A stretch of 31,800 nucleotides of DNA from a virus: the IMG/VR virus record IMGVR_UViG_3300042549_007292, positions 1 through 31,800 of that record; one strand, 5' to 3'. The position numbers and the translations under genes are program-made. The notes under the pieces are model-generated. The model saw only the letters and a list, made by a program, of their open reading frames with translations. It was not told the origin of the DNA and did no database searches. Of this stretch, positions 1-13,947 are shown in pieces (position 1 is the stretch's first letter; every line of letters starts with the position of its first letter).

Positions 1-126
1 GATGATATGATAGAGTCTCTTTATATTGATATGGATTCAATAAGAGAGGTAGATAGAATAGCGATATTAAGTTGGTTATCATCAAATTATAAATCACCTG
101 TAAAAAGAGACAAACCGAATTACTGA
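1..126 (+). CDS. C-terminal fragment of a cassette-encoded protein
   Basis: An open frame enters from the left edge and gives 41 residues before TGA at 124-126; the start lies outside the window. The fragment is polar and rich in Asp, Ser and Lys, with no motif I recognise. Its stop codon overlaps the first box of the next attC-like site, the same close packing seen at later cassettes, so it is probably the last part of a cassette gene. Function unknown. Confidence 0.6.
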   Translation, partial: DDMIESLYIDMDSIREVDRIAILSWLSSNYKSPVKRDKPNY

Positions 127-257
127 TAACGTTCGGGCGGTTGGCGTTCGTTGCCGACTTTGTAACATAAAACTTTAACTTTAAAATAAATGATAATATG
201 AAATACGAATCTTTGATACCCGAAAAACTCGGCAATGACGATAACCGCTTGTTATGT
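124..257 (+). repeat. attC-like site 1
   Basis: The site runs from TGATAAC (124-130) to GTTATGT (251-257). Inside, GGGCGGTT near the left pairs with AACCGC near the right, and TTGCCGA pairs with TCGGCAA further in, giving an imperfect hairpin with a long loop. A small ORF starts in that loop and crosses the right box. The layout matches integron attC sites (RYYYAAC ... GTTRRRY). Confidence 0.75.
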
Positions 258-290
258 GCAGGGCTTTGTTTGAATTGTAAACACCAATAA
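198..290 (+). CDS. 30-residue ORF starting inside attC site 1
   Basis: ATG at 198 follows an AT-rich leader and is read through the right attC box to TAA at 290. The product has two Cys close to the end (LCLNC). Four later cassette ORFs have the same arrangement, with the start in the attC loop and translation across the crossover, which makes this one more believable despite its size. No function recognised; it could also be a leader peptide for the 309 gene. Confidence 0.4.
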   Translation: MKYESLIPEKLGNDDNRLLCAGLCLNCKHQ

Positions 291-308
291 ACAAAACAAC
301 ACAAGACA

Positions 309-587
309 ATGAAAACATATAATGTAAAGTATGATGTTGGACAAGAAGTATATATACTTTTATCCAAAAAAATATTTAAAAGTAAAATTGAAAAGATTAG
401 AATTGTTCATGGGGTACCTTATATCAAAGGCGAAACAATGGAACAAACGGATGGAATTGAAATTGATTACTTGGTTGTAGTTAATAAACAATTCTATCCT
501 TCAGGTGGACATTCATCTAGTTATGATTGGTATAAACAGGATGATATTTTTTTGAATAAAGATGAACTGTGGCGGAAAATAATTTAA
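309..587 (+). CDS. Hypothetical cassette protein, 92 aa
   Basis: The ORF begins 51 nt after the attC 1 crossover box and stops just before attC 2, as expected of a cassette gene. It is a soluble, probably beta-rich protein: residues 1-45 contain a DVGQEVYIL strand followed by a Lys-rich KIEKIRI segment, and the C-terminus has a WYKQDDIF motif followed by KDEL. Small Bacteroidota proteins with a GxEVYxL start and a DDIFxxKEEL end are familiar to me as uncharacterised families. Function unknown. Confidence 0.75.
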   Translation: MKTYNVKYDVGQEVYILLSKKIFKSKIEKIRIVHGVPYIKGETMEQTDGIEIDYLVVVNKQFYPSGGHSSSYDWYKQDDIFLNKDELWRKII

Positions 588-591
588 TTGT

Positions 592-645
592 TTATAACGG
601 TTGAGGATATAAAATCGTTTTAATGTTTTATATCCTTTGTTATGG
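592..645 (+). repeat. attC-like site 2 (54 nt)
   Basis: TTATAAC at 592-598 and GTTATGG at 639-645 flank a perfect 11-bp inverted repeat (AGGATATAAAA and its complement) around the loop TCGTTTTAATG. Sites 3 and 4 have the same length and almost the same loop, so the three form a close family. Confidence 0.88.
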
Positions 646-684
646 TTTAGTTGAATTATTGTTTTACCTTAAAAAAAATAAAAT

Positions 685-948
685 ATGAAAAAATCGGAAA
701 ATTTCAATGAAGCACAAAAAACCAACTTGCGGTTAGCTGCTGTTATAAGCCGTTTTTTATTTCCATATCAAACTTGGATAAAGATGCGAGAAGAATCTAA
801 AGATGAATATGGTGAAAAATTATGCTACTGTGGACACACATATAAATGCACTTGTGGAAATCCAGATAAGAAATGTTTTAATGAAAGTGTAAAGCGAGGT
901 AGCATAATTTTGTGGGATGAAAAAAATGGTTGGAAAAATGGATTATAA
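685..948 (+). CDS. Hypothetical cassette protein with Cys cluster, 87 aa
   Basis: The only notable feature is a Cys/His cluster at about residues 47-63 (CYCGHTYKCTCGNPDKKC), which looks able to bind a metal such as zinc; this is inference from spacing. The stop codon TAA lies inside the first box of attC 3. The ATG follows an A-rich leader of the host type. No known family recognised. Confidence 0.72.
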   Translation: MKKSENFNEAQKTNLRLAAVISRFLFPYQTWIKMREESKDEYGEKLCYCGHTYKCTCGNPDKKCFNESVKRGSIILWDEKNGWKNGL

Positions 949-996
949 CGTCTGATGATAAACAATCGTTTTAATGTTGTTTATCATTTGTTATAT
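943..996 (+). repeat. attC-like site 3 (54 nt)
   Basis: TTATAAC (943-949) and GTTATAT (990-996) enclose a 10-bp inverted repeat (TGATAAACAA and its complement) with the loop TCGTTTTAATG, identical to the loop of site 2. The stem sequence differs completely from site 2, so structure and loop are conserved rather than stem sequence. Confidence 0.88.
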
Positions 997-1039
997 GAAT
1001 GTGTTATTTTTGTTTTACCAATTAAAAAAAATATAAATT

Positions 1040-1213
1040 ATGAAAAATGTTATGAAAGACAGAAAGATTGTTAAAATTGAAATACCAAAAGTGATATGGG
1101 ATGCTGAAATGTCTATATTCAACTTTAGACCAATATTCAAAACTTGGATGGAAAGTATCCAAGACGCTGTTAATAAAACACACGATAGTTATAAACCCTC
1201 AAAACAAAAATAA
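1040..1213 (+). CDS. Hypothetical cassette protein, 57 aa
   Basis: ATG at 1040 follows an A-rich leader; TAA at 1211-1213 lies 6 nt before attC 4. The product is basic at both ends with a central segment containing two Trp and many hydrophobic residues. An alternative start is Met5. No function recognised. Support comes from its place: it fills the only coding space in the cassette between sites 3 and 4. Confidence 0.6.
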   Translation: MKNVMKDRKIVKIEIPKVIWDAEMSIFNFRPIFKTWMESIQDAVNKTHDSYKPSKQK

Positions 1214-1219
1214 CATTTC

Positions 1220-1273
1220 ATATAACGGTTGAGTGTAAAAAATTGTTTTAATGTTTTTTACACTTTGTTATAA
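1220..1273 (+). repeat. attC-like site 4 (54 nt)
   Basis: ATATAAC (1220-1226) and GTTATAA (1267-1273) enclose an 11-bp inverted repeat (AGTGTAAAAAA and its complement) around TTGTTTTAATG. TTCATATAAC (1217-1226) is the exact reverse complement of the cassette start GTTATATGAA (990-999). Confidence 0.9.
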
Positions 1274-1305
1274 GTATGTAAAACAAAAATTATACAAATA
1301 AAATT

Positions 1306-1524
1306 ATGGAAATTAAATATACAATAAGAATTAAGGAAAAACACAACCCACCAACTTTTAAGGAAGAACTTGGTAAAGGTGTTGTTGCAACACAAATTGC
1401 AGATTTCAAAGGTGCAAATGAAAAGGACTTAGATAAACCAAATTTGCAACGACAGATATTTGAATTAGCAGAAAAGTTAAAGAACGAATGGTTTGAGGTT
1501 GTGTTTGAAATAAACAATCCATAA
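1306..1524 (+). CDS. Hypothetical cassette protein, 72 aa
   Basis: A small, highly charged protein with a beta-type N-terminus (MEIKYTIRIKEKH) and a C-terminal helix with WFEVVFEI. The pattern suggests an alpha/beta fold but no family is recognised. It begins 32 nt after attC 4 and ends 15 nt before attC 5. An antisense ORF over the same bases is rejected because the plus-strand ORF fits the cassette layout. Confidence 0.72.
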   Translation: MEIKYTIRIKEKHNPPTFKEELGKGVVATQIADFKGANEKDLDKPNLQRQIFELAEKLKNEWFEVVFEINNP

Positions 1525-1539
1525 TTTTTGTTTTATTGC

Positions 1540-1741
1540 TTATAACGGTTCGCGGGTTGGCGATAGTAATTTTACGGATTTAAAAAACGAAACAAAATGG
1601 AAGATAAAATAAAAGAAGTATTTAAGAAATACAGCAAATCAGTTGATACGGAGTACAATGTTTACAACTGCTTAATAGAAGAAGATTGGTCAAATATAGC
1701 AGAGGAGTTAGTAAAATTATTTCGCCAACCTGCTGTTATGC
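1540..1741 (+). repeat. attC-like site 5 (long loop)
   Basis: TTATAAC (1540-1546) and GTTATGC (1735-1741) are the ends. GCGGGTTGGCGA on the left pairs with TCGCCAACCTGC on the right with one mismatch. The loop of about 150 nt holds the start of the 1597 ORF. CTTATAAC (1539-1546) is the reverse complement of the cassette start GTTATAAG (1267-1274). Confidence 0.8.
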
Positions 1742-1842
1742 CTTCGTTGCCAAATGGCAAAAGGGTGTTAGCAGCACTAAAGGAATTGTCTGATTGCTTC
1801 ACTGATGAAGAACGAAAAACTATGTTTGGCAATGAGGCATAA
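1597..1842 (+). CDS. Hypothetical protein translated across attC 5, 81 aa
   Basis: The ORF starts in the attC 5 loop after an A-rich leader. Residues 1-46 come from the attC site; the crossover box is read as codons for Ala-Val-Met near residues 46-48, and the rest belongs to the downstream cassette. An ATG at 1738 in the same frame could also start a 34-residue product wholly inside the cassette. The N-terminal half looks helical and acidic. The stop overlaps attC 6. Function unknown. Confidence 0.62.
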   Translation: MEDKIKEVFKKYSKSVDTEYNVYNCLIEEDWSNIAEELVKLFRQPAVMPSLPNGKRVLAALKELSDCFTDEERKTMFGNEA

Positions 1843-1957
1843 CGGAATACAAATAAACGCAGTTTTATGAAGAACTTAATAGAAGAAATACAGTACCAAT
1901 TTGAAATGCTATGCCGATGGATGCTAGAACAAAAATTGCGTTTATTTGGTGTTAGCA
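1837..1957 (+). repeat. attC-like site 6
   Basis: GCATAAC (1837-1843) and GTTAGCA (1951-1957) are the ends. AATACAAATAAACGCA pairs with TGCGTTTATTTGGTGTT on the right. AGGCATAAC (1835-1843) is the exact reverse complement of the cassette start GTTATGCCT (1735-1743). Confidence 0.85.
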
Positions 1958-2052
1958 GAGCGTTTTATTGCCAGTCAGAAATTGAAGGTAATAGAAAATG
2001 CACAAATCAATGCGAACACTGTAAAGAGTATTACAAACCGTTGGAGCAATAA
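1867..2052 (+). CDS. Small Cys-rich protein translated across attC 6, 61 aa
   Basis: The start codon lies in the attC 6 loop. The first 28 or so residues, a helical segment, are encoded by the attC site, and the crossover is read through as FGVSRAF. The C-terminal half has four Cys (YCQSE ... CTNQCEHC), which suggests a small metal-binding knuckle; this is inference only. It ends 6 nt before attC 7. Confidence 0.6.
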   Translation: MKNLIEEIQYQFEMLCRWMLEQKLRLFGVSRAFYCQSEIEGNRKCTNQCEHCKEYYKPLEQ

Positions 2053-2058
2053 AATGTC

Positions 2059-2190
2059 TGCTAACGTTTTGCAGCTATATTTAGTTGCGGATTTTGAAAA
2101 CGAAAACTTTAAATAAAGATAAAATGAAATTAGAAGAACAAAACTCGAATGAACCACAGAAACCGCAATTGAATATAGGTGCTGTTAGCA
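2059..2190 (+). repeat. attC-like site 7
   Basis: TGCTAAC (2059-2065) and GTTAGCA (2184-2190) are the ends. CAGCTATATTTAGTTGCGG pairs with CCGCAATTGAATATAGGTG with few mismatches. TCTGCTAAC (2057-2065) is the exact reverse complement of the cassette start GTTAGCAGA (1951-1959). Confidence 0.88.
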
Positions 2191-2330
2191 GCAGTGTTTT
2201 GATGAAGTATATTAATATGACGAGAGAGGAAGAGATTCGGTTTATGAGTGAGTGTATAAATGGGAAACCGAGATATTCAGATAGCGAAATAGCTTTAGGT
2301 TTAGCAATGATGTCAATTAGTGGTAAGTAA
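2124..2330 (+). CDS. Hypothetical protein translated across attC 7, 68 aa
   Basis: I chose ATG 2124 because it directly follows an A-rich leader like its neighbours; an in-frame ATG at 2085 would add 13 residues and lies closer to the attC stem. About 20 residues come from the attC loop, then the crossover is read as GAVSSS. The cassette part contains a helical segment (MTREEEIRFMSECI) and a hydrophobic end. Function unknown. Confidence 0.6.
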   Translation: MKLEEQNSNEPQKPQLNIGAVSSSVLMKYINMTREEEIRFMSECINGKPRYSDSEIALGLAMMSISGK

Positions 2331-2336
2331 CATTGC

Positions 2337-2457
2337 TGCTAACGGTTTGCAGATTGGCGTTGTTGCCTCACAAATGTTTAATTGAAACACTAAATTTAAT
2401 AATATGGAAAATGATAATTTGAAAGACGAAAGCAATAACGCCAATGTGCTGTTAGCG
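2337..2457 (+). repeat. attC-like site 8
   Basis: TGCTAAC (2337-2343) and GTTAGCG (2451-2457) are the ends. GCAGATTGGCGTTGTTGC pairs with GCAATAACGCCAATGTGC with two mismatches. TGCTGCTAAC (2334-2343) is the exact reverse complement of the cassette start GTTAGCAGCA (2184-2193). Confidence 0.9.
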
Positions 2458-2862
2458 GATAGTAAAAATGGGCTAACTCCGATGCTCTTTGAATTGGGCT
2501 GGGGATGGTATGAAGATTGGAGTTACCATCTATTTATCCATTTCGGTAAAACGCAGGAGCAATTCAAAGAAGATGTAAAATTGCTTCTTGTAAAATATGG
2601 AAAGGATTATTTGAAAAGCGAAACAAGTTGGGCAGGTGCGAATGGGTGGGTGGATTTCATTGCCGATAAAATGCCTGAACTTGGCTACCAACCGATAAAG
2701 CCAATTAGAGAAAGTTTCTTTGGTGCATATATAATTGAAGGCAATCAAGATGATGACAAGCAGTGGGGAGAAGTTGTTGGAGATGAGCTTTTACAAGAAG
2801 CAATTTTACACAATAATAAATTGCGTGAGGAAATGAACAATAGTAACAATGAAGCCCAATAG
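2404..2862 (+). CDS. Hypothetical cassette protein translated across attC 8, 152 aa
   Basis: This is the largest cassette gene here. Residues 1-19 are encoded in the attC 8 loop, including the start codon, and the crossover is read as VLLAD. The rest (about 22-152) is a Trp-rich soluble protein with ELGWGWYEDWSYHLF near its start and an acidic C-terminus. Without the attC-provided start the cassette has no early in-frame ATG until residue 27, so the attC may supply its initiation. No family recognised. Confidence 0.75.
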   Translation: MENDNLKDESNNANVLLADSKNGLTPMLFELGWGWYEDWSYHLFIHFGKTQEQFKEDVKLLLVKYGKDYLKSETSWAGANGWVDFIADKMPELGYQPIKPIRESFFGAYIIEGNQDDDKQWGEVVGDELLQEAILHNNKLREEMNNSNNEAQ

Positions 2863-2876
2863 CCCATTTTTATTTC

Positions 2877-3005
2877 CGCTAACGGTTGGGTGTATATGTA
2901 GTGTGAGATTAGAACCACTACACTTGATTTAACCACAAATGTTTATTAGAAATAGAAATTTGAATATATCACTTAACCTCACATTACATATACACCTTGT
3001 TATGT
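2877..3005 (+). repeat. attC-like site 9
   Basis: CGCTAAC (2877-2883) and GTTATGT (2999-3005) are the ends. GGTGTATATGTA pairs with TACATATACACC, extended by TGTGAG/CTCACA. TCCGCTAAC (2875-2883) is the exact reverse complement of the cassette start GTTAGCGGA (2451-2459). The loop shares TTAACCACAAATG with site 11 and a close variant with site 10. Confidence 0.9.
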
Positions 3006-3102
3006 GTAGGTGTGGATTATTAAGATAAATGTTTATTCGGAGAACTGAACAAAATTTTAAAAGAAAAAGAAGGGTGGATTTTTTTATTTAAAGAATTATT
3101 GG

Positions 3103-3110
3103 TATATTTG
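3103..3110 (+). promoter_or_regulatory. Possible cassette-borne promoter (-7 TATATTTG)
   Basis: TATATTTG matches the Bacteroidota -7 consensus TAnnTTTG exactly and lies 17 nt before the ATG at 3128. No clear TTTG -33 box is seen upstream, only a T-run. If active, this cassette would be transcribed independently of the rest of the array. Confidence 0.45.
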
Positions 3111-3127
3111 TAAAAAAAATAAAGGAT

Positions 3128-3409
3128 ATGAAAATCGAAGATATTAAATACGAAAAACATAAATTTGAAATTGTTCAATGGTTTAAGAATGATGGAACAA
3201 TTTTAGGTGAAATTGAAAACGAACATGACTTTAATAATCTTAGAATAGAGTTAGTTAAAAATAACATAACTAAAGATTGTTATTTTATGTGGAACGATAA
3301 AAAAATAACTTTAGACGAAGAAGGTAATATGTCATCATTTCCTAGAGGATTATACGACCATGTTCAAGTAGCGATGATGAATTTATTCAATCTAAGAAAA
3401 CGTGTGTAG
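3128..3409 (+). CDS. Hypothetical cassette protein, 93 aa
   Basis: The start follows an A-rich leader with AAAGGAT, a weak Shine-Dalgarno look-alike that is unusual in this window. The protein is charged, with EIVQWFKNDGTILGEIE near the N-terminus and LYDHVQVAMMNLFNLRKR at the C-terminus, probably alpha/beta. No family recognised. It sits alone between attC 9 and attC 10. Confidence 0.75.
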   Translation: MKIEDIKYEKHKFEIVQWFKNDGTILGEIENEHDFNNLRIELVKNNITKDCYFMWNDKKITLDEEGNMSSFPRGLYDHVQVAMMNLFNLRKRV

Positions 3410-3468
3410 GTTTTTCTTTTAAAATTTTCAACCGAAATATTGATTGGAACGATAAACGAAACACTTAC

Positions 3469-3563
3469 ACATAACGGTTGGGTGTATGAAACGTAACCTA
3501 ACCACAAACTTTGAAATTAACCACTGAACTATAATAGGTTATGTTTTATACACCTTGTTATAC
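3469..3563 (+). repeat. attC-like site 10
   Basis: ACATAAC (3469-3475) and GTTATAC (3557-3563) are the ends. GGTGTAT pairs with ATACACC and GTAACCTA pairs with TAGGTTAT further in. TACACATAAC (3466-3475) is the exact reverse complement of the cassette start GTTATGTGTA (2999-3008). Confidence 0.9.
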
Positions 3564-3671
3564 ACAGTACGGTTTAATTAAGTAGAAGTTTGATACGAAG
3601 AACAATAAAAACTTTTTAAAATGTGCGGTGGAAAATTTAATTTCAAATATTTATATATAAACTAAAATATT

Positions 3672-3926
3672 ATGAGTAAAGAAATGAGAGAACAAATAGA
3701 CAGAGTAAAGAATTGGAAACAGTTTAATGAGAATATATATAAACCAACATTTAAAGATATAGATAAACCGTTATATAAAGAACCTAAAACTGGTAAAGAA
3801 CATTCATTAAACTATGAAGATATAGATTCTGAGTTTTCAAAATATTTAAGACAAAATTACTATAATGTGAAACTTAGTAATGAGGATGTTTCTTTAATTA
3901 GAAAAGAGTGGAAGGAAAATTTTTAA
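3672..3926 (+). CDS. Hypothetical cassette protein, 84 aa
   Basis: A small Lys/Glu-rich soluble protein with many Tyr and Asn; no hydrophobic segments or recognisable motif. It starts 108 nt after the attC 10 crossover, behind a long AT-rich leader that could hold a promoter, and ends 48 nt before attC 11. Function unknown. Confidence 0.72.
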   Translation: MSKEMREQIDRVKNWKQFNENIYKPTFKDIDKPLYKEPKTGKEHSLNYEDIDSEFSKYLRQNYYNVKLSNEDVSLIRKEWKENF

Positions 3927-3973
3927 AAAGTTTTTTACACAGAACTTAATTTGAAACATGAAAGTAGTATTGT

Positions 3974-4066
3974 GTATAACGGTTGAGGCTATGAGCAGTT
4001 GCCTTGTAAATACTGCTCGATTAACCACAAATGCTAATAGGCAATTGCTTATAGCCTTTGTTATAA
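3974..4066 (+). repeat. attC-like site 11
   Basis: GTATAAC (3974-3980) and GTTATAA (4060-4066) are the ends. GGCTAT pairs with ATAGCC, and GCAGTTGCCT pairs with AGGCAATTGC with one mismatch. TGTGTATAAC (3971-3980) is the exact reverse complement of the cassette start GTTATACACA (3557-3566). Confidence 0.92.
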
Positions 4067-4076
4067 GCCGTATTTT

Positions 4077-4304
4077 ATGGAAAATTCAAAGATATTAAAA
4101 GCAAGACAATTAAAGAAAAACGAAGCACTTAATGAAATTCGTAAAATATTCAATCCAAAATATAAATTTCCATATAGTCAAGCAGACCCTTATGGTGATT
4201 GGGATGATTTACCAAGTTGTGCAGAAGAAAGAGAAAAACGAATTTCATATATTATCGAACAACTTGAAAGAGATTTAAAAGAATTGAAAGTTGTCGGTTC
4301 TTAA
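4077..4304 (+). CDS. Hypothetical protein of the last cassette, 75 aa
   Basis: The ORF starts 10 nt after the attC 11 crossover, so there is almost no leader; its start may depend on translation from upstream. It is a highly charged helical protein with FPYSQADPYGDWDDLPSCAEER in the middle (residues about 35-56) and a long amphipathic helix at the end. Function unknown. Confidence 0.72.
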   Translation: MENSKILKARQLKKNEALNEIRKIFNPKYKFPYSQADPYGDWDDLPSCAEEREKRISYIIEQLERDLKELKVVGS

Positions 4305-4307
4305 TAT

Positions 4308-4317
4308 GGCTTATAAC
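4308..4317 (+). other. Unmatched attC half site at the array end
   Basis: GGCTTATAAC is the exact reverse complement of the start of its own cassette, GTTATAAGCC (4060-4069), so it is a true attC left box. No attC-type stem or well-matched right box follows. The next 50 nt hold only a GATTATATAATC palindrome, AT-rich repeats and a GTTACAT at about 4359, just before the recombinase gene. The attC was either truncated or recombined here. Confidence 0.7.
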
Positions 4318-4369
4318 ATGATTATATAATCAACTCTCTATAACTAATTAATAATTAATAGGTTACATA

Positions 4370-5173
4370 ATGAAAAATCAAAAAATTATAAAGATTTGTG
4401 AAGAAAAGTTTATATACTTAAATTACTCACCTCGAACAAGAGATAACTATCTCTCACATATCAGACCTTTCTTAGAGAGTTTAGATGATAAACAAGTAAT
4501 ACACTGCAATTCCCAAGATTTCCAATCTTATCTAGATAATTATAAATTCACCTCAGTGTCTCAACAAAACCAAGTTATTAACGCTATACGATTCTTATAC
4601 AAGTTTGGTCTAAATAAGAAATATGATAAAGTATCATTTAGAAGACCTAAATCAGAGAAAAAACTACCAAAAGTAGTTGACGGAGAGTTTATTATAAACC
4701 AATTATCCAAGATTAAGAATATCAAACATAAAGCAATACTAACTTTAACATTTTCTGTTGGATTAAGAGTATCTGAAATAATTAATCTTAAAATTGAGAA
4801 TATTGATTCCAAAAGAATGTTGATTTATATCAAAAATGCTAAAGGTAGAAAAGACAGGATTGTTCCACTCTCAGAAAAAGTACTAATATTACTTAGAGAA
4901 TATTTTGTTCAGTATAAACCAAAAGAGTATTTATTTAATGGTCAAAATTCAAATCAATACTCAGTAGGAAGTTGTCAAGTAATTTATAAAAAGTATATAG
5001 ATTCTACAGGACACATTCATACATTACGACATTCATGCTTTACAAATTTATTAGAAAACGGGACAGATTTAAGGATTATTCAGAAAATCGCAGGACATTC
5101 AAATATTAAAACTACTGAGATATATACGCATGTATCTAATCAAATTTTAAGTAAAGTAAATTTACCAATTTAA
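4370..5173 (+). CDS. Tyrosine recombinase (XerC/D-like integrase)
   Basis: The 267-residue protein has a SAM-like N-terminal core-binding domain (about 5-85) and a catalytic domain with all expected residues: Arg133 in GLRVSE, Lys158 in AKGRKDR, His217 and Arg220 in HTLRH, His243 in AGHSN and the nucleophile Tyr252 in EIYTHVS. It would cut and rejoin DNA at short core sites through a 3'-phosphotyrosine. Only about 28 residues separate YLF (187-189) from HTLR, so the extra segment that lets IntI handle folded single-stranded attC is not evident. It lies directly after the cassette array in the same direction. It could be a divergent integron recombinase, or a prophage integrase whose target was the array. 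Confidence 0.95.
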   Translation: MKNQKIIKICEEKFIYLNYSPRTRDNYLSHIRPFLESLDDKQVIHCNSQDFQSYLDNYKFTSVSQQNQVINAIRFLYKFGLNKKYDKVSFRRPKSEKKLPKVVDGEFIINQLSKIKNIKHKAILTLTFSVGLRVSEIINLKIENIDSKRMLIYIKNAKGRKDRIVPLSEKVLILLREYFVQYKPKEYLFNGQNSNQYSVGSCQVIYKKYIDSTGHIHTLRHSCFTNLLENGTDLRIIQKIAGHSNIKTTEIYTHVSNQILSKVNLPI

Positions 5174-13803: not shown

Positions 13804-13947
13804 AGTCAGGTGGCTGAATGGTTAAGGCAAAACACGACATTAAAGGCAGAGAGCTTGGCTGCCACTCGAAAGAGTAAACCGTAGGAGTTTCAGCGTTCGT
13901 CGTGCGGGTAAACGGAAGCGGTGCAGGTTCGAATCCTGTCCTGACTA
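13804..13947 (+). ncRNA. tRNA-like element E4 with long internal insert (144 nt)
   Basis: Perfect acceptor AGTCAGG/CCTGACT, D-arm GCT/GGC, and T-arm GCAGG-TTCGAAT-CCTGT. The central 94 nt begin and end with CACGAC and GTCGTG, a possible extended anticodon stem, and inside hold hairpins GGCAG/CTGCC and ACTC-GAAA-GAGT. AAAC/GTTT plus CCGT/ACGG could form a further, perhaps pseudoknotted, pairing. The RNA has its own promoter. Confidence 0.6.

Follow-up and report, generated by a model that had tools for sequence, protein, structure and literature searches.

Xer recombinases such as XerA, XerC, and XerD work on a single dif site and do not handle cassettes. In the IntI integrons (class 1 and Vibrio-type; IntI4 structure 2A3V), one-gene cassettes each carry a hairpin site, complementary R boxes hold GTT and AAC, a fixed attI lies beside the recombinase start codon, and the strand that folds best is the bottom one with respect to attI. 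In Treponema-type integrons, intI is transcribed toward attI, and recombinase and cassette genes read in one direction (PMC3607928). Integrons are thought to be bacterial; in 2023, Qi et al. described captured bacterial integrons or integrase-less attC clusters (CALINs) in 21 phages, and IntI1 recombined some virulent-phage attC sites (PMC9892861). Here, we analyze a 31,800-nucleotide viral DNA, the complete and linear 31.8-kb IMG/VR record IMGVR_UViG_3300042549_007292 (hereafter the window), in which an array of small cassettes ends at position 4317, beside a gene for a tyrosine recombinase. A first-pass annotation, made from the sequence alone, had called an integron-type array beside late myovirus genes unusual, integrons being known from chromosomes and plasmids; the 2023 report of phage integrons predates that remark. 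We find that integron-like cassette arrays, each beside a virus-encoded recombinase, belong to large viruses of Bacteroidota-type bacteria themselves. The system works like an integron, and the four IntI features listed above recur in it. By definition, it falls outside the IntI integron family.

Between positions 639 and 4317 of the window, ten bodies, each running from GTT to AAC, are chained via attC-like sites. The start and end of nine of them are reverse-complementary over 8–10 nt. In the tenth (639–949), the complementary run is 5 nt only, and an internal GTTATAAGCC at ~744 pairs with the end of that body at 9 of 10 positions. The mean run over all ten bodies is 9.0, a mean that 0 of 20,000 permutations of the ends reach. 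These results uphold the first-pass proposal of nine cassettes with attC-type ends matched over 8–10 positions, and the pairs quoted for it are all present: GTTATACACA at 3557 with TGTGTATAAC ending at 3980, GTTATGTGTA at 2999 with TACACATAAC ending at 3475, and GTTAGCAGCA at 2184 with TGCTGCTAAC ending at 2343. End complementarity is retained in related phages, where 201 bodies have a mean run of 8.66, compared to 4.89 after permutation (permuted maximum 5.14). The run is exactly 10 nt in 102 of the 201 and longer in none. Thus, the end box is an inverted repeat of 10 bp with sharp limits, more than a GTTA core, and longer than the 7-bp box of IntI integrons. GT mostly follows the box, and AT mostly precedes it.

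The annotated extent of the array, 1–4317, needs amending at both ends: cassettes do fill this region, but the array is open at the left end of the contig, with its far end outside the fragment, and the extent stops ~53 bp short of the array's own recombinase gene, which had been overlooked. Specifically, the gene at 4370–5173 (+ strand) encodes a tyrosine recombinase of 267 aa, the catalytic residues of which (R133, K158, H217, R220, H243, and Y252) are invariant. Its best-scoring hidden Markov model is XerA_Arch, at 178 bits and under the cutoff of 220; the integron integrase model TIGR02249 gives 145 bits, under its cutoff of 265. Sequence comparison returns Xer proteins and IntI4, and XerA and IntI4 are also the closest folds to the predicted structure (mean predicted local distance difference test score 85). 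The spacing between the KGxKxR and HxLRH motifs is 59 residues in the window clade, 63–64 in a few longer phage rows, 64 in Chryseobacterium types, 66 in Patescibacteria, 68–72 in Xer proteins, and 106 in IntI. Because the spacing is 59–72 outside IntI versus 106 within it, the IntI-specific domain (the IntI insertion) is missing from all compared groups except IntI. In a tree of these proteins, from which row L125, a wrong open reading frame (ORF), was disregarded, the phage recombinases form one clade (support 98/93) with those of the phages Freya and Ingeline and of L041, a contig of a Bacteroidales metagenome-assembled genome (MAG). IntI (100/100), Chryseobacterium-type (100/99), and Xer (100/99) proteins are separate clades, the Patescibacteria proteins, with that of one other MAG, are the sister group of IntI (97/96), and viral rows L020, L022, and L024 lie outside the phage clade. 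Therefore, despite its likeness to XerA, the window recombinase does not group with Xer, and, being outside the IntI clade and without the IntI insertion, it is not of the IntI type. CALINs have no associated integrase, whereas this array adjoins one, as do those of its relatives, which were selected for having one.

Relatives of the recombinase turned up on 35 viral contigs in a first scan and on 167 in a profile scan; 80 of the latter were kept. The 62 viral loci analyzed are those with at least 1.5 kb upstream of the recombinase, on contigs of up to 362 kb, and a few are the same phage from different metagenomes. Sites were called with a home-made scanner that seeks a TAAC...GTTA core and an ungapped stem. 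Of the 62 loci, 61 have attC-like hairpins upstream of the recombinase. In all, 297 upstream sites are on the recombinase strand and 2 on the other strand; 3 sites lie downstream. The first 20 loci contain 83 sites, against 0.2 in dinucleotide shuffles. All seven contigs longer than 200 kb have upstream sites, and in several, the array is well inside the contig. Because the relatives' contigs hold the recombinase together with homologs of the window's baseplate protein (32–61% identical) and, in many cases, a large terminase, we consider the array phage-borne, as first proposed; cultured isolates, discussed below, say the same. The genes that flank the recombinase on its right do not recur next to it elsewhere, and so the module has no fixed position.

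In nearly all relatives, a conserved sequence resembling TATTATATATA comes after a cassette-end AAC, and the sequence before the AAC varies. This junction, AAC|TATTATATATA, lies 43–60 bp ahead of the recombinase start codon in most relatives; its window counterpart is AAC|ATGATTATATAATCA (4315–4340, + strand). Since the junction is kept in sequence while the adjoining cassettes differ, it is a recombinase-proximal attI, the fixed site that an integron would possess. The end of the recombinase gene nearest this attI is its start codon, the canonical arrangement. Thus, in Treponema-type integrons it is intI that is reversed, whereas in the phage system the flipped elements are the cassette genes, with the result, common to both, that recombinase and cassettes read in one direction.

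The orientation of the cassette genes, which the first-pass annotation also missed, separates the phage arrays from canonical integrons, in which genes read away from attI, as they do in our class 1 integron control. All 79 of 79 phage cassettes have their genes pointing toward attI, and therefore each hairpin is 5' of its gene. At the junction side, the array ends in a body without a hairpin, and at the far side, it begins with a hairpin. Thus, the unit is a hairpin plus the body to its right, and not, as initially annotated, a body followed by its hairpin. The same unit follows from the ORFs: 31 of 78 (~40%) have their start within the hairpin and continue across the GTT box, and these would be cut if crossover occurred at that box. 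Homology among the short hairpins, moreover, extends rightward through the leader up to the start codon. The indels among cultured isolates described below point to the same unit. As in integron arrays, cassettes are mostly one ORF and one attC-like site each. Their cargo is largely anonymous: the 79 cassette proteins include one DNA methylase and one DUF7446 protein, and few others match anything.

Relatives of the recombinase also occur in bacteria. In a scan of bacterial genomes, the best was 56% identical and most full-length ones were 34–47% identical; none of 11 bacterial genomes tested has an IntI over the cutoff. Chryseobacterium, Epilithonimonas, and others show 10-nt end complementarity upstream of the recombinase. 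These arrays (L048, L051, L059, L060, L068, and others) resemble the phage system in having a recombinase without the IntI insertion (37–42% identical), end complementarity, the same folding strand, and, in clear cases, the same spacer geometry. They differ in that their genes point away from attI (23 of 23) and in that their recombinases are a separate clade. One Bacteroidales MAG contig, the 5.8-kb L041, has the phage-like orientation, and its recombinase is inside the phage clade. At three Patescibacteria loci (L072, L073, and L076), the junction is AAC|AGTGTNTNTGCGCACC or close to it. The genes at these loci seem directed away from the junction, and they possibly represent another integron-like group, in ultra-small bacteria. 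At L048–L069 (Chryseobacterium and Epilithonimonas), cassette arrays on the chromosome adjoin a recombinase that lacks the IntI domain, and such arrays are likely invisible to IntI-based tools. As a separate matter, the IntegronFinder 2.0 survey of complete genomes names one complete integron in Bacteroidetes proper (PMC9024848), a figure far exceeded by the IntI-positive Bacteroidota genomes in our sample (57 of 198 above the curated cutoff).

Concrete evidence for cassette movement comes from cultured phages. Specifically, phages with a recombinase relative include Polaribacter phages Freya_1–10 (35–36% identical), the isolates of which were plaque-purified from the North Sea; the word "integron" is absent from the main text of that report (PMC8776804). 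Six full Freya genomes have a common 43,513-bp backbone with 0–4 substitutions, and the isolates diverge from one another by up to 4.9 kb in the stretch that precedes the integrase. In Freya_1, 2, 5, and 9, different cassette ends are joined to one AAC|ACCCC. An internal unit of 902 bp is absent from Freya_8, a different unit of 470 bp occupies the attI junction in Freya_6/7, and Freya_9 and Freya_10 differ by one cassette at that junction. All Freya breakpoints are at a cassette-end AAC. Similarly, among the Danklef isolates (Danklef_1–5; L142–L146), Danklef_1 and Danklef_5 carry a 777-bp adenine methylase unit between AACs that Danklef_2–4 do not. A 1,169-bp unit with AAC ends is 99.6% identical in Freya_10 and Danklef_1, and its neighbors differ. 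At the Freya/Danklef breakpoints, the common sequence is AAC or a few bases, not the hairpin. Thus, whole AAC-bounded units are gained or lost exactly among sister phage isolates. Full sharing of cassettes was found in Freya/Danklef only: the first phage arrays compared for common cassettes share hairpins, and they have zero identical whole cassettes. The accessible text of PMC9892861 contains no mention that we could find of Freya or Danklef.

Our reading, which we hold to be very probably correct, is that the array is the cassette store of an active integron-like system that belongs to the phage and has flipped cassettes. We infer that the adjacent recombinase catalyzes the exchange, that its substrate is single-stranded, and that cassettes circulate as circles. 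The notion is as follows. A cassette would consist of a hairpin, GTT, one small gene, and AAC. When replication or another process exposes the + strand, the single strand would fold, with the 10-bp end boxes pairing and the hairpin stem forming, to present a two-armed site to the Xer-like recombinase. The recombinase would then join the folded site to attI, a fixed double-stranded site that lies shortly before the recombinase's own start codon. Cassettes would enter at attI and could be lost singly or in runs. Recombination polarity relative to attI would be that of bacterial integrons, with the genes inside flipped, such that their reading direction would be that of the phage operon, toward the recombinase. 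Each cassette would bring its own leader and start codon. The outcome would be fast exchange of small accessory genes between phages.

Some observations sit uneasily with this reading. First, the strongest evidence for gain and loss comes from Freya, the integrase of which is only 35–36% identical to that of the window. Second, the Danklef isolates vary by one cassette despite an integrase gene truncated to 43 aa in all five; this change may reflect another recombinase, or it may predate the truncation. Finally, arrays are kept in some contigs whose recombinase is broken. The Danklef case also lends weight to the most serious competing explanation: the array is a passive attC cluster, a CALIN, moved in trans by a host IntI, and the adjacent recombinase is an ordinary lysogeny integrase. 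A suitable enzyme could be at hand, given the action of IntI1 on some virulent-phage attC sites and the prevalence of IntI in Bacteroidota noted above. We nonetheless regard this explanation as unlikely. It does not account for the position of the array at the start-codon side of the recombinase, with a conserved junction, in 61 of 62 loci; for the grouping into one clade of the recombinases that have this junction; or for the arrival of new Freya cassettes exactly there. Nor can the association of array and recombinase come from descent of one genome order, since the right flank is unconserved. By comparison with the phage integrons and CALINs of PMC9892861, which likewise place attC sites and cassettes in phages, virulent ones included and some with DNA methyltransferases, the phages here have their own recombinase clade and attI.

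The folding of the sites carries a strand preference. The + strand folds better in 263 of 279 distinct phage sites, with a mean advantage of 2.6 kcal/mol, and the non-Watson–Crick stem positions are G·T on the + strand in 475 instances versus A·C in 38. With attI as the reference, the + strand is the bottom one, which is the strand best used by canonical integrons (PMC9892861). In phage arrays, the + strand is likewise the mRNA strand. In the Chryseobacterium-type sites, however, the + strand folds better in 10 of 10 cases, though the genes are on the opposite strand. Because the + strand folds better even where it is not the mRNA strand, the bias favors selection for recombination over selection for RNA structure. 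Spacers in the phage sites are about 5 and 1–2 nt; in the bacterial spacer table, most sites were mis-paired, and only clear cases were used. The outer 8–12 bp of most phage sites pair without a bulge, both in the scanner output and in the folds, a possible difference from IntI integrons, in which attC stems have extrahelical bases; it must be read with the scanner in mind, as that asks for ungapped stems. Overall, the phage sites have the complementary GTT/AAC boxes around an imperfect palindrome and the bottom-strand folding preference of attC; an Rfam search gave no attC match.

These data bear on a further idea, which we judge very improbable: the hairpins are RNA elements, such as leaders or attenuators with start codons in their loops, and cassettes move by homologous recombination between hairpins. 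The hairpins are indeed 70–90% alike between phages, and the coincidence of the folding strand with the mRNA strand and the start codons in loops fit an RNA role. But the Freya/Danklef breakpoints share no hairpin sequence, the Chryseobacterium-type arrays fold better on the same attI-relative strand with genes on the other, and the 10-bp complementarity of the body ends is left unexplained. Least of all do we credit a host–phage junction or chimera, that is, a prophage in a bacterial integron or the misassembly at 4318 that the first-pass annotation had raised: the contig is short, with the array at its end and a tyrosine recombinase beside the junction as at a prophage edge, but dozens of independent viral contigs have the same junction with different cassettes, several of them exceeding 200 kb with the array internal, and the junction is present in cultured, circular phage genomes, which refutes this possibility.

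Taking the phage-owned integron-like system together with its bacterial relatives, we consider a broader proposal to be probable, if less secure than the reading of the array itself. Specifically, phages would host an independent cassette-collecting branch, in which hairpins folded from single-stranded DNA are recombined by an Xer-like enzyme that lacks the IntI-specific domain. With the Chryseobacterium-type and possibly the Patescibacteria arrays, the IntI integron would then be one branch of a wider family. Gene orientation would have been flipped to suit phage transcription, and cassettes would be traded between phages. The literature searched, which was without preprints and most subscription journals, contains no phage-owned recombinase clade with flipped cassettes that we could find. 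If correct, the proposal means that phages, including those on contigs longer than 300 kb, have machinery devoted to the exchange of small genes; this would account in part for how rapidly their uncharacterized accessory genes turn over. It also suggests that cassette systems may manage without the IntI-specific domain, which is regarded as essential for integron activity. A phage-owned lineage alters the view of where cassettes originate and how they travel. Polaribacter phage Freya, with isolates that differ almost only by cassettes, offers a culturable model.

The window array comprises at least 11 attC-like hairpins (124–4066) and a terminal half-site at 4317, all on the + strand. Hairpin A (124–257; R'' to R') is weak. 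Hairpins B (592–645), D (943–996), and E (1220–1273) are of a short class. Hairpins F (1540–1741), G (1837–1957), H (2059–2190), and I (2337–2457) have an ORF start in the loop. Hairpins J (2877–3005), K (3469–3563), and L (3974–4066) follow; the + and − strands fold at −14.1 and −8.8 kcal/mol for K and at −17.1 and −13.0 kcal/mol for L. Unit boundaries were set by analogy with the Freya/Danklef indels. On this basis, the + strand cassettes, each a hairpin with its body, are B at 599–949 (ORF 685–948), D at 950–1226 (ORF 1040–1213), E at 1227–1546 (ORF 1306–1524), F at 1547–1843 (ORF 1597–1842), G at 1844–2065 (ORF 1867–2052), H at 2066–2343 (ORF 2124–2330), I at 2344–2883 (ORF 2404–2862), J at 2884–3475 (ORF 3128–3409), K at 3476–3980 (ORF 3672–3926), and, abutting attI, L at 3981–4317 (ORF 4077–4304). 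The loop TCGTTTTAATG, seen in hairpin B, is nearly unchanged across phages (the three short hairpins of the window and those of relatives), which suggests a second role, perhaps as a promoter or protein site.

Some candidate comparisons were set aside. Near-identical IMG/VR sets considered as a source of indels (L156/157/158, L170/176, L208/209, L217/219, and L159/213) proved to be the same phage, with no indels. P12002L and P12002S were dropped since they have no annotated integrase; P12002L belongs to the phage set of PMC9892861. Identity of an L041 cassette with the window cassette at 3473–3980 was rejected, as only the two ends and the leader are common. Over window 3473–3980 and L041 698–1241, the hairpin, leader, and 3' end are 87–90% alike and the middle of the gene differs, as if cargo had been swapped inside a conserved frame.

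Array-bearing phages with a broken recombinase are L021 (8753–9004), L025 (10001–10401), L027–L030 (10001–10114), and L035 (10001–10057). The match stops after ~84, 38, or 19 residues, or residues 70–197 are deleted, and L021 has a second array behind the break. Outside phages, Acinetobacter plasmid L119 (NZ_CP104336.1) carries at 4025–4690, beside tet(X3), a recombinase gene ~50% identical over 219 residues to that of the window, which by sequence connects this group of recombinases with the setting of a clinically relevant resistance gene. In the window itself, the + strand carries nearly all of the larger ORFs in the surroundings of the array, and baseplate wedge proteins are encoded, with other phage-like proteins, in the right half. 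At 13804–13947, Rfam calls a tRNA of 144 nt (37 bits) where ARAGORN makes no call; this tRNA looks interrupted by a ~70-nt insert, possibly an intron.

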